IMG/VR virus record: IMGVR_UViG_3300044639_001193 | Location: 35,751 to 99,750 of that record | Source: a virus | Length of the DNA: 64,000 nt | Reading direction: 5' to 3' (one strand) | Made by a program: the position numbers and the translations under genes | In this document: positions 30,039 through 52,179 of the stretch, in pieces | How the letters are laid out: each line of letters begins with the position of its first letter | Position numbering within the stretch: the first letter of the stretch is position 1 | The notes under the pieces: model-generated | Told to the model about the DNA's origin: nothing | The model's database searches: none | The model's input: only the letters and a program-made list of their open reading frames with translations

Positions 30039-30527
30039 ATGAATATACTCGTATCACTAGACGGCGTACTAAGTTCGGAATCTGGGGAACCAATCCGTGC
30101 AGGAGTAGCACTTTACTACGCCCTAAATATCAATAACCGTGTAGCACTGATGACCTCTCGTGGTGAAGAAGACGCTAAACAATGGTTACAGAACCACGGC
30201 ATTATTAACTATGACGATTTGATTGATACTTCTTTTGCACTAGAAGGCGAAGACTTAAAGAAGCGCCAGTTCACAACCAGTAGAAGTAGAGCGCCTATTG
30301 AGTTGTATGTAGATAGCGACCCACACATGGTTGCTTGGGTATTCCAAGAACACATGGTGCCAACGGTTCTCTTTACACACCCAGGCTACGTACGAGTTGA
30401 ACACCGTCCAGATGCTCCAAAGAAGGTTAGAGCATGGTCTGAGATTGAAGAATCAATTAACCGTGTTAACAAGGCTAAATCATTAGCAGCACAGGCTCCT
30501 AAAGAACAAAACTTCTTTGGAGACTAA
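30039..30527 (+). CDS. HAD-superfamily-like protein
   Basis: A 162-residue protein. MNILVSLDGVLSS could be HAD motif I (first Asp) but lacks the usual second Asp, as the sequence reads D-G-V-L. Motif II is MTSRG and motif III may be YVDSDPHM. This suggests a phosphatase- or phosphodiesterase-like fold with a changed active site. It abuts the nucleotidyltransferase without a gap and shares its next overlap with a large gene, so all three may act in one pathway, which is inference. Confidence 0.55.
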   Translation: MNILVSLDGVLSSESGEPIRAGVALYYALNINNRVALMTSRGEEDAKQWLQNHGIINYDDLIDTSFALEGEDLKKRQFTTSRSRAPIELYVDSDPHMVAWVFQEHMVPTVLFTHPGYVRVEHRPDAPKKVRAWSEIEESINRVNKAKSLAAQAPKEQNFFGD

Positions 30528-32032
30528 TGCAAGTTATCTTTAGCGGTGTTGAAGTTGGGTCTAACCGCACCCTTTTAGAGGGTATGAAAGTTGAGTCAAT
30601 GGGACTCAACTTTTGGGGGCTACGCAAAAGAGGTTTGCCCAAGAACAAACTTTGGCTTATTAGCGAGCATTTTGACCCTGAGACCAAAGTTTACATTGAG
30701 TCAGGTGCGGCCCAGGCAGATAAAGCAGGGCTATCTAAAGAAGAGTTAATGTCTTTAGCCGTTGAATACCAAGAGTTCCTGGTTAACAACTCAGAGCGTG
30801 CCACAGCGTTTATGGAGTTTGATTCCCTGGTTCTGGGCGAAGATTGGGTCAAAGCCCAGCGTCCGTTCTATGAGTACGACCCTAAGTTTTGGGTGGTCTG
30901 GCATGAAGAATACGGACTACCAGCCCTTAAAGCCATGTCCCAGACCTACACAAACGTAGTCATACCCAACGACGAGATTGAGGCGGTCACAAGCCTCTCA
31001 GCGGTCACCAGAGGCTACCAAAGGCAGTTCGGTACCGCGTACCACGCCCTAGCCTGCGCCAAACCAGACAACCTTAGACAGGTACCATTTAGCACAGCCA
31101 GCACATTGTCATGGCTAAGCCCGATGCGCCGAGGGGAGACAATCGTTTGGGATGGCACCAAACTTAACCGTTATCCAAAGCGTATGAAAGCCCAAGCAAG
31201 ACCTCGCTACAAGTCTGTAGTAGAGAAGGCAGGGCTAGACTATTTAGAGTTTAATAAAGATAGTACCCTAGAAGCGACTAGAGTTGCGGTCTGGTCATAC
31301 CTACAGTTGGAGAAGTCAATGGACAAGAAAACCCCTGATTTACACATCATTGAAGGTGGTAGAAATGCCCAAGTATCTGACAACAGTGATACCCCACTAC
31401 TATCAGGTTTCGCGGAATTTGGGGGGTCACCTTCTGATAACAGCGACCTTGAGATGCGGAAAGTTTCTTCTCCAGAACTGATACAAAGAGATGTAAGTGA
31501 GATACAAAACCTACCTGTTTTCGGCTACAAGATGAAGACTGTAGTGGAAACAGATGATGACGGTAAAGACGTTCTCATGGAAGTGCCAGTGGTTCAGACC
31601 CAGCAATCTTCTTTACGCCAGTGCGATACTTGCTTTGTCGCCGCCAACTGTCCCGCCTTCAAACCTCAAAATACCTGTGCCTTCAACCTTCCTATAGAGG
31701 TAAAGACTAAAGACCAACTGAAGGCATTGATGACTTCAATGATTGAAATGCAGGGTCAAAGAGTTGCTTTTATGCGTTTTGCTGAGGAAATGAACGGTGG
31801 CTACGCAGACCCTAACGTCTCTCAAGAAGTTGACCGTCTTATCAAGATGGTTAAAGAAGTTAATGACATGGCATCAGATAAAGAGTTTGTTCAGATTACC
31901 GCCAGCCGCCAATCATCAGGTGGAGTTCTTTCATCCATCTTTGGTGACCGTGCTCAAGCACTTAGAGAACTGCCAGAAGCCCTGAAGGAAGAGACTGTAA
32001 CTAAGATTATCCAATCGTCTATAGAAGATTGA
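30527..32032 (+). CDS. Large TIM-barrel-like protein with zinc cluster
   Basis: A 501-residue protein. The N-terminal 270 residues alternate strands and helices (MQVIFSGVEV, VYIESGAAQADKAGLS, EYQEFLVNN) and include STASTLSWLSPMRRGE, which recalls the SxDS-x-W segment of DpdA/tRNA-guanine transglycosylase-like barrels; this is a weak, motif-level resemblance. The C-terminus carries CDTCFVAANCPAF...CAF, a zinc knuckle, then a well-conserved-looking helical segment (RVAFMRFAEEMNGGYADP). No PreQ0 synthesis genes are in the window. The specific role is unknown. Confidence 0.45.
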   Translation: MQVIFSGVEVGSNRTLLEGMKVESMGLNFWGLRKRGLPKNKLWLISEHFDPETKVYIESGAAQADKAGLSKEELMSLAVEYQEFLVNNSERATAFMEFDSLVLGEDWVKAQRPFYEYDPKFWVVWHEEYGLPALKAMSQTYTNVVIPNDEIEAVTSLSAVTRGYQRQFGTAYHALACAKPDNLRQVPFSTASTLSWLSPMRRGETIVWDGTKLNRYPKRMKAQARPRYKSVVEKAGLDYLEFNKDSTLEATRVAVWSYLQLEKSMDKKTPDLHIIEGGRNAQVSDNSDTPLLSGFAEFGGSPSDNSDLEMRKVSSPELIQRDVSEIQNLPVFGYKMKTVVETDDDGKDVLMEVPVVQTQQSSLRQCDTCFVAANCPAFKPQNTCAFNLPIEVKTKDQLKALMTSMIEMQGQRVAFMRFAEEMNGGYADPNVSQEVDRLIKMVKEVNDMASDKEFVQITASRQSSGGVLSSIFGDRAQALRELPEALKEETVTKIIQSSIED

Positions 32033-32156: not shown

Positions 32157-34232
32157 ATGGGGTATTTGAGCAAACATAGAAATGGTGGTATGTCAATGGG
32201 GTTATTCTCATTTGAACTTCAAAAGGAATTCGTAGAGGGATACAAGGACAAGAAGGCTCCGTTTGGGTACAGGGATGCCGCTGGAAACTCAGTGGGCGAA
32301 ATCACTTTCTTGCGTACCTATTCACGTTTGAAGGCAGATGGTACTAAGGAGACTTGGGTAGATGTATGTGAGCGTGTTATCAACGGCATGTATTCCCTAC
32401 AGAAAGACCACGCCAAAAGACAGCGCTTACCTTGGTCTGATGCCAAGGCAGCAGCCTCGGCTAAAGAAGCATTTGACCGTCTCTTCAACTTGAAGTGGAC
32501 TCCACCAGGTCGTGGACTATGGGTAATGGGTACCCCACTAGTAAATGAGCAGCGCAACTCGGCAGCCTTGCAGAACTGTGCTTTTGTTTCAACAGGAGCG
32601 ATGGTCAAGACCGACCCAGCAAAACCGTTTGCCTTCCTCATGGAAGCCTCAATGCTCGGAGTGGGCGTTGGCTTTGATGATAAGGGCGCAGAAAAGGACT
32701 TCACAATATATGAACCAAAAGAAACCTATGAGTATAAAATCCCTGACACCAGAGAAGGATGGGTTGAGTCAGTCTCTGCCCTCATCAATGCCTACCTCAA
32801 ATCAGATACGAAGGCTCCAGTATTTGATTACCAAGAAATCCGCCCAGCAGGTGCGCCAATCAAAACTTTTGGCGGAACCGCAGCAGGACACGAACCTCTC
32901 CTAAGACTCCACAACCACATCACCAAGATGTTTGCTGGTCGTGCAGGTCAGAAGTTAACCAAGATTGACATTGCTGATATTGGCAACATGATTGGTGTCT
33001 GTGTTGTATCAGGGAACGTTCGTCGTTCAGCAGAACTTCTTATTGGTCAGATTGACGACGAGAACTTCTTAAACCTTAAAAACCCAGAGGTATACCCAGA
33101 GCGTAACTCTTACGACCCTGAGAATCCAGGCTGGGCTTGGATGTCTAACAACTCTGTGGAAGCAAAGGTTGGCTCAGACTTTTCAAAGATTATTGACGGC
33201 ATTGTCCGTAACGGCGAACCAGGCGTTGTGTGGATGGATGTATCACGCAAGTATGGTCGTCTTATTGACCCACCTAACAACAAAGATTGGCGAATCGCTG
33301 GCTACAACCCTTGTGCAGAACAGTCACTTGAGTCTTATGAGTGTTGCACACTTGTTGAAACCTATTTGAATCGCCACACAGACCTTGATGACTTCAAAAG
33401 AACATTAAAGTTTGCTTATCTTTATGCCAAGACTGTAACTCTCTTGCCTACTCACTGGGAAGAAACCAATGCAATCATGCAACGCAACCGCCGTATTGGA
33501 ACTTCAATCTCTGGCATTGCGAACTTTGCAGATAACAATGGTTGGACTGTGCTTCGTGATTGGCTTAACAGCGGCTATGAAGTTGTAAAGAAGTATGACG
33601 AGTCTTACTCAGAGTGGCTTGGCATCCGTCAGTCCATAAAGATGACTACGGTCAAACCATCAGGAACAGTTTCAATCTTAGCGGGAGAATCTCCTGGAGT
33701 TCACTGGGCATCAGGCGGTAAGTTCTTTAACAGAGCAATTCGCTTTGCAAACAGTGACCCAATGCTTCCGCTATTTAAGATGGCAAACTACAGAGTAGAA
33801 CCAGCCTCTGAATCTCCAGAAACAACTTCAGTAGTATTCTTTCCAATCCAAACTAATGCTAAGAGAGCGGAAAAAGAAGTCTCAGTTCACGAGAAAGTTT
33901 CTTTAGCAGTGGTTGTGCAGCGATACTGGTCGGATAACTCCGTATCAGTAACAGTTACCTTTGACCCTGAGAAAGAAGCAGAAGCAATCCCCTCTATCTT
34001 GCACATGCACGACGGTCAGTTAAAGACGATTAGTTTCTTGCCTATGGGCAACATGACTTATCCACAAATGCCATATACACAGATTACTCAAGAAGAATAT
34101 GAAGCAGCAACTATGTCTTTGTTCCCGATTGACTTGTCAGGTGTCTACGCTGGTATGGCAAGTGACGCTATTGGTGAGGCTTACTGCACCACGGACGCTT
34201 GTGAAGTTAAGTTGATTAAAGACAATCAGTAA
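32157..34232 (+). CDS. nrdJ: Class II (B12-dependent) ribonucleotide reductase, monomeric RTPR type
   Basis: About 691 residues, or 680 from an ATG 33 bases downstream, which may be the real start. Hallmarks: GRGLWVMGTP, NCAFVST (redox Cys141), MLGVGVGFDDKG, NPCAEQ with the thiyl-radical Cys386, and a C-terminal EAYCTTDACEVK cysteine pair that passes electrons. It reduces ribonucleotides to dNTP precursors using adenosylcobalamin and needs no oxygen. It provides dNTPs to the replisome upstream. The gene is the last of its transcription unit and ends in a strong terminator. Confidence 0.95.
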   Translation: MGYLSKHRNGGMSMGLFSFELQKEFVEGYKDKKAPFGYRDAAGNSVGEITFLRTYSRLKADGTKETWVDVCERVINGMYSLQKDHAKRQRLPWSDAKAAASAKEAFDRLFNLKWTPPGRGLWVMGTPLVNEQRNSAALQNCAFVSTGAMVKTDPAKPFAFLMEASMLGVGVGFDDKGAEKDFTIYEPKETYEYKIPDTREGWVESVSALINAYLKSDTKAPVFDYQEIRPAGAPIKTFGGTAAGHEPLLRLHNHITKMFAGRAGQKLTKIDIADIGNMIGVCVVSGNVRRSAELLIGQIDDENFLNLKNPEVYPERNSYDPENPGWAWMSNNSVEAKVGSDFSKIIDGIVRNGEPGVVWMDVSRKYGRLIDPPNNKDWRIAGYNPCAEQSLESYECCTLVETYLNRHTDLDDFKRTLKFAYLYAKTVTLLPTHWEETNAIMQRNRRIGTSISGIANFADNNGWTVLRDWLNSGYEVVKKYDESYSEWLGIRQSIKMTTVKPSGTVSILAGESPGVHWASGGKFFNRAIRFANSDPMLPLFKMANYRVEPASESPETTSVVFFPIQTNAKRAEKEVSVHEKVSLAVVVQRYWSDNSVSVTVTFDPEKEAEAIPSILHMHDGQLKTISFLPMGNMTYPQMPYTQITQEEYEAATMSLFPIDLSGVYAGMASDAIGEAYCTTDACEVKLIKDNQ

Positions 34233-36342: not shown

Positions 36343-36984
36343 TTACTTGGCGAGAAGATTAACTCGCAATAATGAGTCACCCTTCTTTAGGTTGCATAGT
36401 CCATGAGCAGGTCTAATGTTGCCTAACTTATCGTGACCACCTTTGATTAAAGGAATTAGGTGGTCTAAGTGCAAGCCCATTGTTTTATGCCCTGTGCGAG
36501 GTAGTGATAGGTCAATATCAGTACCGCAAACCCAACACGCTACGCCGTAATGGTCAATAACTTGTTGCAGGTTATATGCGTGGTGACCGACTCCGTATTT
36601 TCTTGCTCGCCTTGCTCGGTCATGATTAGCGTACTTCTCCTTGTTGTGGAGATAGTTAAAGTGGTCACCAACTTTTTTCTTGCGTGGGTGTTTATCTTTC
36701 CACTCCTGACTTCTTTTGCGAGCCTTATCTTGTAAGTCGGGGCGGTTAGCATAACGCTCATTTCTTTGTTCTTTAGTTGGTGTTTTACCAGCGAGAGTTC
36801 TTTTGCTGACACTCTCTCGGTTGATACGGCGATACCACTCAGGGTTCTCTGAACGGTACTGCGCTGTTTTCTTGCGAGTGTATTCTCGCGAGGCTTCAAC
36901 GCATGGTTGGCAAGGCGTTTCTCCTATTGACTTGTGCCGTCTATAAGAGGCGCGAGTACCGCAAGGGCTAAGTTCTTTAGCCAT
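36343..36984 (-). CDS. HNH endonuclease with N-terminal zinc knuckle
   Basis: A 213-residue HNH nuclease: the C-terminal part has CWVCG, LHLDHLIPLIKGGHDKLGNIRP and LCNLKKG, the H-N-H core. The N-terminus, CGTRASYRRHKSIGETPCQPC, is the same knuckle type found as an insert in the integrase. A basic spacer links the two. HNH proteins in phages may be homing endonucleases or packaging nucleases; nothing here decides. It ends the minus-strand operon. Confidence 0.8.
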   Translation of the reverse strand: MAKELSPCGTRASYRRHKSIGETPCQPCVEASREYTRKKTAQYRSENPEWYRRINRESVSKRTLAGKTPTKEQRNERYANRPDLQDKARKRSQEWKDKHPRKKKVGDHFNYLHNKEKYANHDRARRARKYGVGHHAYNLQQVIDHYGVACWVCGTDIDLSLPRTGHKTMGLHLDHLIPLIKGGHDKLGNIRPAHGLCNLKKGDSLLRVNLLAK

Positions 36985-37788: not shown

Positions 37789-38028
37789 CTATCCTTCCCA
37801 TAGTTGTTGTTCATTTTTGTTGTCTTGTATATCGTTTCGTACTTCATGCTTGCATGAGTTCATTGTTCTATGCTTCTTTGACTTCACTTCATACTCTTTT
37901 GTTTGCTCATTAAGAACACTCCAAAACCAATTATGAAATTCGTCTTTACCTATGAGGTATTTATCGTCATGCGTTAGATAGCAACTCTTTGCTGTCGGGT
38001 GTTTCTTTAGCGATAGATTGAACCTCAT
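37789..38028 (-). CDS. Hypothetical protein ending in QLWEG
   Basis: A 79-residue basic protein that starts inside the end of the Api92-like gene (62-base overlap, different frame). It shares only the last residues, NEQQLWEG, with its operon neighbours. The stretch that encodes this tail also contains the GGAAGGA ribosome-binding site of the next gene. Confidence 0.55.
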   Translation of the reverse strand: MRFNLSLKKHPTAKSCYLTHDDKYLIGKDEFHNWFWSVLNEQTKEYEVKSKKHRTMNSCKHEVRNDIQDNKNEQQLWEG

Positions 38029-38641
38029 CTGCTTCTCCTTCCCATAGTTCTTTATCTATTGTTAGTAGTTCTGTTTCACACTCAACGCATAGGTCTTGTG
38101 GCTCACCGTCACACTCAAACTGCTCATGGCATTGGTCGCATGAGTGGTGGTAGTTGTCACCGTAATACTCCCGATAGATTTCGCAAGGCGTTCCTTTCTC
38201 AAAAGAACCTTGCAATACAACTTCGGGAATACCTTTGCGATAGATATAAGTTCCGTAGAACGCCATACCTTCCTCGGTGAATTTGTGAGTGATAGTTACT
38301 TTTGGATTGTCTTTAGACAACTGACTTAGAACTGGTACTGGTGGTGACCACGCTGTTTGGAAGTTGATAACTAAGTCACCGCCTTCCCAACAAGTATCGT
38401 CATACTTCTCTGACCACTCGCCGTCATTTAAGAACATCACATCACTAGCGTTCCACTTTGTTCCCCAATTTTCAATACGCCACTCGTACCACTCAGCACC
38501 AGTAGGCATTGGAACTACCTTCTCAAAGTCAAAGAGTGCTTCATCACCTTCACTTTGAGTTGTGGCAATTTGCTTTAGAAGTTTGTTTAACATTTTTGGC
38601 TTACCAACAATAGTTAATTCGTTACTGCACCAATTCGGCAT
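37967..38641 (-). CDS. Api92-like protein with ferredoxin-like domain
   Basis: A 224-residue protein starting MPNWCSNELTIVGKPKML and containing WYEWRIENWGTKWN, the signature of the Api92/YubB-like ferredoxin-fold family found in phages and plasmids. A C-terminal zinc-knuckle-like segment (CDQCHEQF...CVEC) follows, then IDKELWEGEADE, the same tail motif as the downstream paralogues but internal here because the next gene overlaps. Role unknown; it is not obviously an enzyme. Confidence 0.65.
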   Translation of the reverse strand: MPNWCSNELTIVGKPKMLNKLLKQIATTQSEGDEALFDFEKVVPMPTGAEWYEWRIENWGTKWNASDVMFLNDGEWSEKYDDTCWEGGDLVINFQTAWSPPVPVLSQLSKDNPKVTITHKFTEEGMAFYGTYIYRKGIPEVVLQGSFEKGTPCEIYREYYGDNYHHSCDQCHEQFECDGEPQDLCVECETELLTIDKELWEGEADEVQSIAKETPDSKELLSNA

Positions 38642-39672: not shown

Positions 39673-39966
39673 TTATTTCTCCCATAGTTCTTTATCTAGT
39701 TGTTCTACTTGTGTATCTATTTGTATTTCACTTATGCGCTTAAAGTCAAAGCGCATACTCTCCATAATTGCGTCTGCAATTCTGTCGTCACCCTCAGTAC
39801 CATTAACAACTGTTTCCCACTCATCATCATTGACAACTGGCAACTCTGTTGTTTCTGCCCACTCGCTAAACTCATACATGAATTCGGTTTTGTCAAACCA
39901 AGTAATATAAATTACATCATCAGGGTTTAACTTTTCCAATAACGCTATTGCTCTTGATACTTGCAT
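39673..39966 (-). CDS. Acidic paralogue A of the P-D-D/ELW family
   Basis: A 97-residue acidic protein. It shares with three following genes a helical start LLEKLNPDDVIYITWFDKTEF of the form (L/I)-L-x-(K/E)-x-x-P-D-x-x-(V/I)-x-(V/I)-x-(Y/W)-x-(D/N)-K and the C-terminal tail DKELWEK. Nothing named matches. It is a clear member of a tandem family of unknown function. Confidence 0.65.
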   Translation of the reverse strand: MQVSRAIALLEKLNPDDVIYITWFDKTEFMYEFSEWAETTELPVVNDDEWETVVNGTEGDDRIADAIMESMRFDFKRISEIQIDTQVEQLDKELWEK

Positions 39967-39969
39967 TTT

Positions 39970-40278
39970 TTATCCTTCCCATAGTTGTTCATCAGTTATA
40001 CCTGCCTTGTAATTAGCCATGAAGTCTGCAATAAACTTCTCGGTGTGTTCATCTGTTTCTTTCATCATTAGTTCTAAGTCTTTACGGATACCAGCACCTA
40101 ACATTTGGTCATTGAATTGCACATTAAAGTTATCTGCAACTAAATCCCACTCGCTATCCATTAGTAACCTTGCTTCGGTATCTAAGTGCTTAAAGCACTC
40201 TTTATCCCATAACGCAACAACCAGTTGTGTATCGGGTTGATACTTCTTTAGCAGTTCTTGTAACTCACTTACTTTCAT
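39970..40278 (-). CDS. Acidic paralogue B of the P-D-D/ELW family
   Basis: A 102-residue protein with LLKKYQPDTQLVVALWDKECF at the start and TDEQLWEG at the end. Centre is acidic and helical. GTGAGGGA-type spacing is not visible; the ribosome-binding site lies in the tail of the upstream gene. Same family as its neighbours by the start and the tail motif. Confidence 0.65.
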   Translation of the reverse strand: MKVSELQELLKKYQPDTQLVVALWDKECFKHLDTEARLLMDSEWDLVADNFNVQFNDQMLGAGIRKDLELMMKETDEHTEKFIADFMANYKAGITDEQLWEG

Positions 40279-40612
40279 TTGTTGTTCTCCCCTCGGTATC
40301 CCATAGTTCTGTATCTGACTCTGCTTCTTTTACTTCACCAATTAGTCGGCTCAATACATCTCGGCAACTATCGTTAAAGTTTTCATTGAACCGTTCCCAA
40401 ATATAATCGTCATTGTCTATGCTGTTAATAATTTCTTTAACAACATCATCAGTAACAAATTTATTTGTATCTATTACTTCATCATTTTCATCTGTGTATT
40501 CCATTTGACTAAAGGCTTCTGCAATATCGTCTTTGTTGATATAAGTAACCCACACTTCATCATCAGGGTTCATACTGCTAAAGCGTTCTGCAAGGTCTTT
40601 TGCTTTTGACAT
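40265..40612 (-). CDS. Acidic paralogue C of the P-D-D/ELW family
   Basis: A 115-residue protein with LAERFSSMNPDDEVWVTYINK near the start and DTELWDTEGRTTNESK at the end, where the tail motif is followed by ten more residues because the next gene starts inside it. Very acidic, with DENDEVIDTN and IDNDDYIW stretches. Confidence 0.65.
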   Translation of the reverse strand: MSKAKDLAERFSSMNPDDEVWVTYINKDDIAEAFSQMEYTDENDEVIDTNKFVTDDVVKEIINSIDNDDYIWERFNENFNDSCRDVLSRLIGEVKEAESDTELWDTEGRTTNESK

Positions 40613-40617
40613 TGTTG

Positions 40618-40947
40618 CTACTCCTTATCCCATAGTTGTTTATCTAGTTGTTCATCATAAGTTGCTTCTGATTGTTCATTACTCCACTCGTCTAACGCTT
40701 CAATTAGTGATTGAGTAATACCGTCACCAACATCAGGGGTGTCATATTGCTGTTCTGTTGCGTACTCCCATGACTCATTGAAGGCTTCATTAACTTCTTT
40801 ATCAGTTAAGTTGTGTTCATCTTTGAGTTCTGTAAGTGTTTCCTCAACCCACTCTTTGCAGAGTTCTTTATCCCAATAAAGAACAAGTAAATGTTCTTTA
40901 GGGTCATAAGCAGATAGTTCTTTGATAATACTTTCTACTGTTGCCAT
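40618..40947 (-). CDS. Acidic paralogue D of the P-D-D/ELW family
   Basis: A 109-residue protein with IIKELSAYDPKEHLLVLYWDK near the start and LDKQLWDKE at the end. Highly acidic in the middle (EEVNEAFNESWEYATEQQYD-like composition). The first of the four tandem paralogues in transcription order. AAGGAAT lies before the ATG. Confidence 0.65.
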   Translation of the reverse strand: MATVESIIKELSAYDPKEHLLVLYWDKELCKEWVEETLTELKDEHNLTDKEVNEAFNESWEYATEQQYDTPDVGDGITQSLIEALDEWSNEQSEATYDEQLDKQLWDKE

Positions 40948-42014: not shown

Positions 42015-42593
42015 TTAGTTATCCTTTCCTGCATAGGCGAGTTCAATTAACTGCTCAAACTCTTTGATACTGAAAGTCACAACGCCGTAAGCCTCAATTC
42101 CATAACCGTTTTGAGTTACTTCAACATTGTTATTAGAACCTAGAAGTTCTTTAGCACTATCTATAATGGATTGGCGTGAGCGTTCTATCTCTTGTGCAAT
42201 TCGCTCAATATGAGCGCGTTCCAAAAGACGGCGTTCTTTTTCCTCTATCTCGCGCTTCTCTTGTTCTGATTGCTTTGCTTTCCAACGAGGCTCTAGCACC
42301 GACCACTCAGCAACAATATCTGCAAGGCGTGAAGTCCAATAGAAGTCTGTGCCACCGTTATCTGTTGCCTTCACAAGTACGCCAACGGAACGATTGCCCT
42401 GCTGTGCTTTTGTGAAGGTAGGTTCATGCTTGCGTTGTGAAGGCTCGTACTCGTACTTAGTTAGTTCAACAAGCGTTGCCTTAACAACATCATTTTCTCG
42501 TACATTGTCTATCTCTCTTGAACCGCGACTTGAATATGTCCATGAAGGAACGATTGCGTATTCTTTTCCAACTGTTAGTTCTGATAGTTTCAT
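42015..42593 (-). CDS. Hypothetical protein next to the CobT-like gene
   Basis: A 192-residue protein: a beta-rich first half (KEYAIVPSWTYSSRGSREI, DVVKATLVELTKYEY), a coiled-coil-like middle (EQEKREIEEKERRLLERAHI) and a short C-terminal alpha/beta part. The layout resembles small partner proteins of MoxR/VWA systems only in context. The upstream hairpin and ribosome-binding block lie just ahead of the start. Confidence 0.5.
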   Translation of the reverse strand: MKLSELTVGKEYAIVPSWTYSSRGSREIDNVRENDVVKATLVELTKYEYEPSQRKHEPTFTKAQQGNRSVGVLVKATDNGGTDFYWTSRLADIVAEWSVLEPRWKAKQSEQEKREIEEKERRLLERAHIERIAQEIERSRQSIIDSAKELLGSNNNVEVTQNGYGIEAYGVVTFSIKEFEQLIELAYAGKDN

Positions 42594-42658: not shown

Positions 42659-44695
42659 TTACTTAACTAGATTGCGTGAGATTGCAAGGCGCACTAAAGA
42701 CTTACCTAAAGTTGTAATGTCTTTAGCAGATTGAAGTTGTGTTACCAACTCAAACGAGTGCCGTACTCCGTTTAAGTAATCGGCACTTAGATTGCGACCC
42801 TCATATAGCAACGCTTGGCAAGTAAGAACGCCAGCGTTTTTCATTTCGGTAACGGCTTGTTCTCCTGCTTCACTATCCCAAGCACCGTCGGTAATCATGC
42901 AAAGCAACTTAATTGGCTTGTCGCTCTCAGCAAGTACCTTCTTAGCGTAAAGGATTGAGTCTTTAGGATTTGTGCCACCGTTAGCACCTGAGTCGCGGAT
43001 AGTTGTACCAGCCTTCTCGTTCTTGTCATAAAGAAGTGTGGTACTGCTATCAAAGAGAACAACTGTTGTTGTTGCTTCTACTGACTCTAGTGCTTTCTTA
43101 ATAGCCCACATGGATTTGTAGGCTTCTTTAGCGTTATGCCCTGCCATTGAGGAACTTCTATCTAACAAAATTACTGCTTCAATAGCAGTAACATCATCAC
43201 GCCCCTCTTGCCACTCATCAAAACAAGTGTCTAAGTCATTACCCATTAGATAACGAGTTGCATTTATTTTTCCGTTGTCGGTTTGCTTTAACCAAGCAGG
43301 GTCGTGGTCTGCTCGCAAGCGTTCTAACTCTCGCGCAAAGGCTCTCGCACTAAGCACTAACTCAGGGCTTGCAGGAACATTTGAGTAGCGAGCCTTGTCG
43401 GGTGTCTTTGCATTACCGCCAGTTAGTTCAACCTCAACGCCAGCCTGTTTTGCAATTCGGTTAATCTCTTTTGATAGTTGCTCAACAATATCGTTCATAA
43501 CATCATTGAGAACATCAGTAACTTGTTGATTGCTACCAGTAACGCCTTGCGCGTTACCAGCACTATTGCCACCGTTACCGTCACTATCATCAACTTCATC
43601 ACTTAGTTCATCATCAAAGTCCTCAAACTCATCAGCAAACTCATCATCAGAAGTTTTCTCATCTTGGTCAAAAGAATTATCTTTTGACTTTGGTTGAGTA
43701 GCACCACCGCAACCACCTGCGTTGATTGGCTTGCTATCGCTATCTGAATTGTCTTTAGAAGTTTCATCAGACTTATCTTGGATAACAACATCAAGCACAA
43801 CATTTTTCTTTTGATTAGCGATTGCAGTTTGTTGGTCACGCTTTTGTTGTGCGGTCTTTGCAGGTCGCACACTAGAACTTTCCACGCCCTCTACTGGGCG
43901 ATTACCATGACCGTTAGGGCTATGGATACGGATAGTTACTGTTGTGCCTTCACCGTTACCGTTGCCACCGTCTTGCGGTGATTGCGGTTGCTTAGGCAAG
44001 TTGTCCAAAAGATTATTGAACGCAACGATAAGTTCTTTTGCTCTTTCGGTATCGTCATTACTTGCAAATATCAGTAAGCGATATTCGTCAATAATGGTTG
44101 CGAGTGCTTTTATGTCGCTCGGTACTTTGTATTTATCTACTGCAAGTTGTCGCAACTCAACTGGTAGATATTGCCGACCATAAACCAAAGGGAACGCTGT
44201 TGTTACTGCTTCATCATTACCGAGAAGGTAATCAACGATTGTTGCAGTAAGCCAGTTTTCAACTGTTGGTAGATAACCAGTTAGCAAAGTTTCAATACGC
44301 ATATCCTCTAGGCAATTAAAACTTTCCCAAAGTGCTTGTGCATTGTCTTGTTCTCTTATCCATATCGGCAAGGCATGACCATTTCTAGGCGTATATAAAA
44401 GATGACTCAATTCGTGGAACGATAACCCTTGCAAAGAAAGAATTGAGTGTGCAGATAGGTCAAACTTAATCTCAGATAAGTTCAACCACATTTCGCTAGT
44501 GCTTGACCAAGCAGGTGCTTTATATTCGGGTTGCTCAACGATATTAACTTTTATTCTGCGACCCGTTAAAACACTATTGACTCGCGCCAATACTGTTGCG
44601 ATTGAGTTTAAGTGCTTGCGTGTAACTTGTTTTGCTTGTTCCGCTTTATCTATTTGCTCTTGCAATAGTTGCGGTGCTGAGTTTCCTGCTCTCAC
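42659..44695 (-). CDS. CobT-like VWA protein with zincin-type motif
   Basis: A 678-residue protein. N-terminus: LSFHELSHLLYTP contains HELSH, an HExxH metallopeptidase motif, and FNCLEDMRIETLL supplies a possible third ligand. This zincin-like part is followed by a long acidic, glutamine/aspartate-rich linker (residues about 250-440; DSDSKPINAGGCG, DEFEDFDDELSDEVDD) and a C-terminal VWA domain with MIDAS motif LLDRSSSM. The plan matches CobT and other VWA partners of MoxR ATPases. The CobS-like ATPase is the next gene upstream. No CobN subunit is seen, so true cobalt chelation is unlikely. Confidence 0.75.
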   Translation of the reverse strand: MRAGNSAPQLLQEQIDKAEQAKQVTRKHLNSIATVLARVNSVLTGRRIKVNIVEQPEYKAPAWSSTSEMWLNLSEIKFDLSAHSILSLQGLSFHELSHLLYTPRNGHALPIWIREQDNAQALWESFNCLEDMRIETLLTGYLPTVENWLTATIVDYLLGNDEAVTTAFPLVYGRQYLPVELRQLAVDKYKVPSDIKALATIIDEYRLLIFASNDDTERAKELIVAFNNLLDNLPKQPQSPQDGGNGNGEGTTVTIRIHSPNGHGNRPVEGVESSSVRPAKTAQQKRDQQTAIANQKKNVVLDVVIQDKSDETSKDNSDSDSKPINAGGCGGATQPKSKDNSFDQDEKTSDDEFADEFEDFDDELSDEVDDSDGNGGNSAGNAQGVTGSNQQVTDVLNDVMNDIVEQLSKEINRIAKQAGVEVELTGGNAKTPDKARYSNVPASPELVLSARAFARELERLRADHDPAWLKQTDNGKINATRYLMGNDLDTCFDEWQEGRDDVTAIEAVILLDRSSSMAGHNAKEAYKSMWAIKKALESVEATTTVVLFDSSTTLLYDKNEKAGTTIRDSGANGGTNPKDSILYAKKVLAESDKPIKLLCMITDGAWDSEAGEQAVTEMKNAGVLTCQALLYEGRNLSADYLNGVRHSFELVTQLQSAKDITTLGKSLVRLAISRNLVK

Positions 44696-44714
44696 TTTAT
44701 TTTCTCCTATCGGT

Positions 44715-46070
44715 TTAGTTGCGGATTAGTGTTGTAGTGCTGTTGAGTTCTTGCTCTAGGTCGTGGCGGTGTGCTTCTAAAAGAAGTTTCACACTTGGGC
44801 GTTCATCATCATTGAAGTTGTTTAGGAAGTTATCTACTGCATACTCGTAACCCAACTCTTGTGCAAACTTCTGAAAGTTCTTTAGCAAGCGAGTTGAGAG
44901 TGGTGTTTCGTAGATACCTTGAATTGAGTCTGCTCTCATTTGCTGAACTAGATTAAGCAAGGTTGCAGACTTAATGAACTTCTTTTCAATTTCAATGTCG
45001 TACTCAAAACGCAACTTGTGGTGAAAGCGGTCAATAAACGCTTGATTGAGTTTATTGTTGCCATGATATTTGTCGTTGTAAGAACCAACGATTAAAACAT
45101 TTTCACCTTTTGGAATTACCTCGCCCCTGTTATCAAGCAAAGTAAGTGTGCGAGTGCTATCAAGTGTTGGGAATAAAACGCCCGATTGCTTTGCAATAAT
45201 GAAAGTCAATTCGTCTAAGTGAATTACTGCATTACCTTCACGCCAGCACTCAGTAAAGCCACCGTCTTGCCAAAACAAATTACCAATTTGATTAGGCATA
45301 ATTTTTCCAAACAACTGGCTACTTTCAATTCCTGCATTGAAGTTAATGCGGTAGTAATTAAGCCCACGCTTACCTGCATAAGCCATTGTGCTTGTTGTCT
45401 TACCTGTTCCTGCTTCACCAACGATTGCAACATTGAGATTATTTATTAACGCATGGTCATAAATATCTGTTTCTGTTTTACCGTTAGCAAAAGTTCTTTC
45501 AATATAACCTGAAATCTCAGGGTCACTTAAAGAAGGAACAAAAGAAAGATTGCTTGTTGATTGAGTTGCTTTGCGTTCAATGACGATTGCAGGTGCAACT
45601 GCTACTGGTACTGGTGTAACTGTTGGTGTTGATTGCGTTGTTGTTGCTGACTTGTCGCTTCTCCCGTCGGAACGGTATTGCGATAGCAACTCAGGGTCTT
45701 GCTCTATTTGTGCATACACTTCTTTAAGCACCTCTCCGATAGTTTGCTGGCTGATTGTTTTGTCACGCAAACCAAACTGCTTTGTCAATTTCTGAATTAG
45801 CACGATTGGTTTTTCATTTGTAGTGATTGCATGAATATCTGTTGCTGTTAATGGTGTTGATAGAACTGAACCAACGATTAAAGAAGTTTCGCTATCGGCG
45901 TTACTGACGATTGCTAAATAACTATCGTTGTTCCAAGCATTATCGGTACCGCGACCACCATTGGTAGTGCGTGACCATGCAAAGTTCTTTCCGTTGTAAT
46001 TGGCGATTAGATATTGCTTTAGTGTTCCGACTTCATTTGTTTGCCCTGTAATTAGGATTGCGTGTGACAT
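44715..46070 (-). CDS. CobS-like MoxR-type AAA+ ATPase
   Basis: A 451-residue AAA+ ATPase. Residues about 1-150 are a unique N-terminal region; then VAIVGEAGTGKTTSTM is Walker A, AVIHLDELTF Walker B and LIVGSYNDKY the sensor region, close to CobS and MoxR enzymes that remodel partners through ATP hydrolysis. It lies 19 bases upstream of the CobT-like VWA gene, the invariable pairing of such systems. It probably works as the motor, the VWA protein as adaptor. The substrate is unknown. Confidence 0.8.
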   Translation of the reverse strand: MSHAILITGQTNEVGTLKQYLIANYNGKNFAWSRTTNGGRGTDNAWNNDSYLAIVSNADSETSLIVGSVLSTPLTATDIHAITTNEKPIVLIQKLTKQFGLRDKTISQQTIGEVLKEVYAQIEQDPELLSQYRSDGRSDKSATTTQSTPTVTPVPVAVAPAIVIERKATQSTSNLSFVPSLSDPEISGYIERTFANGKTETDIYDHALINNLNVAIVGEAGTGKTTSTMAYAGKRGLNYYRINFNAGIESSQLFGKIMPNQIGNLFWQDGGFTECWREGNAVIHLDELTFIIAKQSGVLFPTLDSTRTLTLLDNRGEVIPKGENVLIVGSYNDKYHGNNKLNQAFIDRFHHKLRFEYDIEIEKKFIKSATLLNLVQQMRADSIQGIYETPLSTRLLKNFQKFAQELGYEYAVDNFLNNFNDDERPSVKLLLEAHRHDLEQELNSTTTLIRN

Positions 46071-51630: not shown

Positions 51631-51769
51631 CATTTGGCTAGGGATACTCATTGGCATTGTGATAGGTAGAGGTTTTGACCTATGGGTAGATATTAGAGAC
51701 AGAAGAGCGGTTACTGAGGAAAAAAGCACCGCCAGCGTTTTGCCAACGGCAGAGGGAGATGGGCAATGA
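51620..51769 (+). CDS. Small membrane protein (49 residues)
   Basis: Has one hydrophobic segment (IWLGILIGIVIGRGF) near the N-terminus and a charged tail. GTTAAGGAG lies just upstream. Overlaps neighbours. It could be a small spanin-like or membrane-anchored factor, but no motif supports that. Confidence 0.5.
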   Translation: MLNNIWLGILIGIVIGRGFDLWVDIRDRRAVTEEKSTASVLPTAEGDGQ

Positions 51770-52179
51770 TAAAACAATCACAGCATAAAATTAATGGCAA
51801 GATTAACGAGCAGTTTAAAAATCATTTAGAACAAGAGGGTTGGACGACCACCACCTATCCAGATTACAACCACCTCAAAGAAGAGCACGCCAAAAAGAGA
51901 GAAGTACTTAATAAAAATGTAAAGACCTTTGGTAACTCAGTTACACTTGCCGCTCCCATGGTCGTGCAAGATGGGGCCGTCGCAATTGCCTATGAAAACG
52001 TGCTCAAAGATTATTTTAACGCAAAGGTAAAAAACTTTCCGCTCTGGTCAGGTTTGCCCGACATTACCGTTAAGCCACAACCCAATTTAGATATGATGAT
52101 TTCTTGGCACGTGAATGTTCCCAAGCATTTAGTGATTAACCCTGATGACTTGCTGGAAGAAGACCTCTGGAACTCATGA
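51766..52179 (+). CDS. Hypothetical 137-residue protein
   Basis: An alpha/beta protein with a charged N-terminal helix (EQFKNHLEQEGWTTTTYPDY) and a beta-rich remainder (VQDGAVAIAYENVLKDYFNA, FPLWSGLPDITVKPQ). No family match. The overlap with the next gene suggests a functional pair with the nuclease-like protein. Confidence 0.5.
   Translation: MIKQSQHKINGKINEQFKNHLEQEGWTTTTYPDYNHLKEEHAKKREVLNKNVKTFGNSVTLAAPMVVQDGAVAIAYENVLKDYFNAKVKNFPLWSGLPDITVKPQPNLDMMISWHVNVPKHLVINPDDLLEEDLWNS

Follow-up and report, generated by a model that had tools for sequence, protein, structure and literature searches.

What does a virus do with genes that look like cobS and cobT? Viral cobS belongs to the cyanophage core genes and frequently figures among the vitamin B12 auxiliary metabolic genes. 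The stretch analysed here (the window: 64,000 nucleotides, positions 35751-99750 of the 99,750-bp IMG/VR virus record IMGVR_UViG_3300044639_001193, the rest of which was examined as two loci) carries such a pair. A preliminary description, made from the sequence, had noticed a CobS-like MoxR ATPase gene beside a CobT-like gene with an HExxH motif and no CobN gene, and had proposed a chaperone or regulated protease used in virion assembly or host takeover. Our ORF check confirmed both genes on the minus strand, the CobT-like ORF, with a GTG start and AGGAG upstream, lying about 20 bp downstream of the CobS-like one. The features discussed below are, in window coordinates:

44715-46070 (-): CobS-like, MoxR-type AAA+ ATPase, 451 aa (AAA_5, phrog_249)
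45396-45419 (-): Walker A GEAGTGKT, residues 218-225 (G, K and T conserved in a 14-sequence alignment)
45207-45227 (-): Walker B-like VIHLDEL, residues 282-288 (E287 invariant in the same 14 sequences)
42659-44695 (-): CobT-like protein, predicted metallopeptidase-VWA, 678 aa
43991-44695 (-): zincin-like N-terminal domain, residues 1-235 (AlphaFold2 model, abylysin as top PDB match)
44402-44416 (-): HELSH, residues 94-98, with predicted zinc ligands H94 and H98 and predicted catalytic E95 (alignment and model helix)
44291-44311 (-): LEDMRIE, residues 129-135, with predicted third zinc ligand E130 (alignment and model helix)
43526-43795 (-): acidic low-complexity linker, residues about 301-390, 29% D+E (composition, very low pLDDT)
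42680-43186 (-): VWA domain, residues about 504-672 (Pfam VWA, Foldseek)
43145-43162 (-): MIDAS motif DRSSSM, residues 512-517 (D, S, S and M invariant in the alignment)
42015-42593 (-): third gene of the operon, 192 aa, no known family (homologs follow the CobT-like gene)
32157-34232 (+): class II (B12-dependent) ribonucleotide reductase (RNR-II_ins_dom 4.9e-16, phrog_367 8e-142)
37789-38028, 37967-38641, 39673-39966, 39970-40278, 40265-40612 and 40618-40947 (-): small proteins with a C-terminal LW tag
51766-52179 (+): small protein with the same LW tag

Domains and predicted fold of the two proteins

The upstream protein matches AAA_5 in Pfam (E 1.4e-14) and, among the PHROG families, phrog_249, annotated 'porphyrin biosynthesis' (E 5.6e-31). 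The solved structures nearest to it are Midasin, NorQ and CbbQ, the match to CobS being weaker, and its score against the CobS family TIGR01650 is 13.3 bits, below the cut-off of 558.55. A single CobS-like protein used as query against viral contigs found no relative. The Staphylococcus, Lactobacillus and one Acinetobacter phage matched by the cyanophage CobS were not counted, no recognised VWA partner being present among the neighbours checked.

In the downstream protein the C-terminal part is a VWA domain (Pfam VWA, E 8e-4), which bears GGT and TDG besides the MIDAS motif; in the full-length model, this domain is matched by Foldseek to NorQD (3e-7) and to MDN1-MIDAS (9e-7). The acidic linker that precedes it is probably disordered, as judged from its very low pLDDT. 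The two proteins bear the Walker motifs and the MIDAS residues of a MoxR/VWA pair. The CobT families PF06213 and TIGR01651 did not match the window protein at E 0.1, and neither did the metallopeptidase family DUF2201_N (PF13203) at the same threshold; a search for DUF2201_N loci gave none that could serve for comparison.

The HExxH motif arises by chance in 0.85% of shuffles of the CobT-like protein. Does it stand in a suitable fold? The N-terminal domain (234-235 residues), modelled with AlphaFold2 from an input alignment of 29 N-terminal domains, reached a pLDDT of 93.2 and a pTM of 0.86. The model shows one long helix and three short strands; HELSH is on a helix spanning residues 81-100 and LEDMRIE on another spanning 118-140, so that both motifs lie on neighbouring helices after a small sheet. 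The prediction, a confident one with HExxH on a helix, gives no indication of the non-zincin fold that would have spoken against a peptidase. Its best PDB match is 4jiu, the minigluzincin abylysin (probability 0.84, E 1.0, 3.0 A over 69 columns), and projannalysin and selecase are also among the matches; the abylysin match, not significant at E 1.0, suggests a gluzincin-like fold. No match to the zincin domain was found among PDB sequences. In a comparison with models of viral proteins, the domain found its counterparts in other phage VWA and 'CobT' proteins; its matches to HHTV-2, HCTV-2 and GMA2 are weaker. The zincin-like layout of HELSH and LEDMRIE read earlier from the letters is supported, and the acidic linker and the VWA domain are confirmed.

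The predicted zinc site in viral relatives and in cellular CobT

HEL.H and LED.RIE are invariant among seven actinophage and IMG/VR proteins, the window's included, and in 29 aligned sequences, where relatives are 30-59% identical to the window protein, no variation was seen in the H, E and H of HExxH or in the L, E, D, R and I of LEDMRIE. A profile search yielded 80 IMG/VR loci, with HExxH in 80/80 and LEDxRxE in 79/80, a conservation that is partly circular because the search used both motifs as patterns. In all 80 loci the ATPase gene lies directly upstream, as in the window, and the pairing of a MoxR ATPase with a VWA protein noticed in the preliminary description holds throughout.

Is the site also kept where the motifs played no part in the sampling? 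Gordonia and Brevibacterium phages were collected by whole-protein tblastn, and partners of CobS were picked by annotation or neighbourhood in cyanophages, ICP2 and phage-plasmids. In these motif-independent samples, which cover actinophages, cyanophages, haloviruses, the vibriophage and phage-plasmids, HExxH is kept in all cases except one. The CobS partner reads HEVGH in the cyanophages P-SSM2, P-SSM4, S-H35 and S-SRM01 and HECYH in vibriophage ICP2, the enterobacterial phage-plasmids pJN2-26 and pRHB17 have HEVGH and HEVAH, respectively, and the layout is also found in GMA2 and in the haloviruses HHTV-2 and HCTV-2. In HHTV-2 (locus L143) the zincin part, with HEVQH, forms an ORF of its own (gp2, 416-1483) and the VWA domain the next one (gp3, 1703-2989). 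The exception is the Acinetobacter phage-plasmid pNY5301 (locus L099, 3526-5445), which keeps the pair and has lost the zinc site (QEVAK); catalysis is therefore dispensable in at least one lineage.

How do these proteins relate to the cobaltochelatase subunit? The pRHB17 protein, which has HExxH, does match Pfam CobT (2.2e-35), and a phage-plasmid-type CobT profile aligns over its full length with 19 cellular CobT (E 6e-48). In this profile alignment HEVAH stands opposite S-I-A-L-K-like residues of cellular CobT, which are incapable of forming the site, and LEDVFIE faces VEQARVE, the following glutamate being retained. Cellular CobT from 30 proteobacterial loci shows HDxxxH a few residues later, and no HExxH. 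The N-terminal link from the viral proteins to cellular CobT runs through the phage-plasmid members, since direct hhalign of the 29 viral proteins against cellular CobT aligned the VWA region alone.

In the tree, which is unrooted, has long branches and includes read-through upstream sequence in one row (L090), cellular CobT forms one supported clade beside L096 (HEAGH), grouped with phage-plasmid and ICP2 proteins. The window protein falls elsewhere, in a group with full support that is distant from the chelatases, and pNY5301 represents a separate, independent loss of the zinc site beside phage-plasmids that retain it. The simplest reading of such an unrooted tree, although it is no proof, is that the ancestor possessed the zinc site. 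Our literature search found no report of the loss of this site in CobT.

CobN was compared along the same division. It is present in 31 of the 37 genomes with zinc-less CobT. The absence of CobN first remarked on in the window extends to the rest of the genome and beyond: searches of the 99,750-bp record and of 27 related records, each at least 65 kb long, found none (0/28 for the clade). Nor was any found in 16 other viral or plasmid records and three bacterial MAGs with HExxH proteins. Some of the viral records may be mere fragments, and the MAGs may be incomplete. True CobT is a related branch, without the zinc site, that accompanies CobN. Because of the model scores, the zinc site and the lack of CobN, we rejected a cobaltochelatase identity for the window pair.

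Candidate roles of the pair and its gene context

We propose, with a probability of roughly 0.6, that the two genes encode a phage MoxR-type chaperone/protease machine, an AAA+ ring with a gluzincin-like metallopeptidase-VWA partner, likely acting at the takeover or replication stage, and not a cobaltochelatase. In such a machine, the CobS-like ATPase ring would work in contact with the VWA protein, whose MIDAS would grip a target complex by one of its acidic residues. ATP hydrolysis would then remodel this complex, and the N-terminal domain, with zinc presumably held by H94, H98 and E130 and with E95 as the putative catalytic residue, would cut it. The protease part of the original proposal gains from the fold prediction and from the depth of conservation; the part concerning virion assembly finds no support in the gene context.

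That context can be described as follows. The genes for terminase, portal and tail fibre occupy the plus strand of the record's first part. The pair is separate from these structural genes: it belongs to a minus-strand cluster that also contains an integrase gene, an HNH nuclease gene and small unknown ORFs. In P-SSM2, P-SSM4, ICP2 and pJN2-26, the pair is found among replication or recombination genes. It is from gene position alone that we favour host takeover or genome replication over virion assembly as the stage at which the machine may act. Homologs of the operon's third gene were found in 44 of the 86 loci, where they follow the CobT-like gene by a median of 70 bp. The gene has no PHROG match and may encode an adaptor or a substrate.

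Other genes of the region deserve mention. The HNH endonuclease (36343-36984, minus strand) has a WhiB-like N-terminal match; this and the kinship with actinophages point tentatively to an actinobacterial host. A queuine tRNA-ribosyltransferase-like gene (phrog_887) occupies 30527-32032 on the plus strand. A C-terminal tag of the type [DE]xxLW[DE][GKE] is common to small proteins, encoded downstream of the pair, that belong to several unrelated families. In the near clade, its 44 pattern matches resolve into five families and a few singletons, two of them probably due to chance. The four small genes in tandem at 39673-40947 (minus strand) are paralogous, all belonging to one family (MKVSELQELLKKY...). 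Within the MPNWC family the tag is present in members from the near clade, and at the loci of remote homologs none was seen except unrelated chance matches. A link between the tag and the MoxR/VWA pair may exist, but distant carriers of the pair are without the tag.

The first alternative is a chaperone/protease for virion assembly and the processing of structural proteins, as proposed for jumbo phages and, without a peptidase, as for the p618/p892 pair of ATV. This role has already been proposed for the same domain architecture, with the ATV precedent (PMC7824862). However, the separation of the pair from the terminase, portal and tail genes, and its company of replication and recombination genes in relatives, make it rather unlikely for the window.

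A second possibility is that the zincin fold serves, without catalysis, as a scaffold for structure or peptide binding, and that the pair is a pure MoxR-VWA chaperone. Indeed, pNY5301 and all cellular CobT examined keep the architecture without the site. We nevertheless consider this unlikely, as H, E, H and an acidic third residue are near-universal in highly diverged viral members and as the zincin ORF of HHTV-2 is free-standing.

The least probable alternative, and in our view a poor candidate, is that viral CobST hijacks the host CobN and raises cobalamin during infection (PMC8651126), which here would feed the class II ribonucleotide reductase of the phage. It keeps some weight because a phrog_367 reductase is carried by 28/28 clade records, class II by its insertion domain in 7/7 tested, and both proteins are distantly related to CobS and CobT. 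However, the class II insertion domain was found in 0/13 tested carriers outside the clade, and for this reason a B12-reductase link was rejected as a general rule. Moreover, the viral proteins keep a zinc site that is absent from working CobT, CobN was found in no viral record searched, and the window's branch is distant from the chelatase branch. Enterobacterial and Vibrio elements also carry the pair, and their hosts are not known to have CobN. A B12 role of the pair is therefore weakened.

Since nearly all viral relatives examined retain the zinc site and CobT has lost it, the viral 'B12 genes' more likely encode a machine that remodels or cuts proteins. Whether this can be generalized to viral cobS/cobT overall, the cyanophage cobS included, as an ATP-driven zinc-protease machine, CobT being a dead-protease branch recruited for metal insertion, is to us an evenly balanced question. 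The conservation of the site in viruses and its loss in CobT make the conflict between a chaperone/protease and a B12 function testable and suggest that a check of many metagenomic B12 annotations is due, and the family relation offers a testable origin for the chelatase subunit CobT.

Comparison with known systems

The pairing of an AAA+ ATPase with a MIDAS-VWA protein is shared with NorQ-NorD, CbbQ-CbbO, RavA-ViaA and ATV p618-p892, the VWA fold of the window protein being closest to NorD and to the Midasin MIDAS. In none of these systems, to our knowledge, does the VWA partner carry a metallopeptidase domain. CobS and CobT (TIGR01650, TIGR01651, PF06213, PF11775) have the same domain order and a homologous VWA, and the N-terminal domain, of which a solved CobT structure exists (21vu), is homologous via phage-plasmid intermediates. 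Cellular CobT differs in that the zinc site is absent and the genomes mostly have CobN. Against the CobS and CobT models, the window proteins either give no match or reach scores much too low.

The viral CobST clusters of Liu et al. 2021 (PMC8651126) are of the same kind as the window pair, and their HHTV-2, HCTV-2 and cyanophage members share the HExxH layout. These authors regarded viral CobST as a cobaltochelatase and the 'peptidase' label as a mistake; the present sequence comparisons favour the peptidase annotation.

The window protein resembles the minigluzincins (abylysin, projannalysin and selecase) and their relatives, the Wss1/SPRTN proteases, in its predicted pair of helices, which bear HExxH and a glutamate as ligand. 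However, there is no significant sequence match, the structural match stands at E 1.0, and abylysin has neither linker nor VWA. Wss1, a minigluzincin-like protease, partners with the AAA ATPase Cdc48 and clears DNA-bound proteins (PMC4559962), and it may serve as a functional analogy for the pair.

The closest system is that of jumbo phages, in which a MoxR ATPase accompanies a vWA protein with a metallopeptidase fused at its N-terminus and for which virion assembly was proposed (Iyer et al. 2021, PMC7824862). Compared by description, the group 2.2 pair has the same AAA+ MoxR and metallopeptidase-vWA architecture. Unlike in jumbo phages, the window pair belongs to a clade of phages of about 100 kb with a class II ribonucleotide reductase: a kind of pair already published for jumbo phages is found here in another phage clade.
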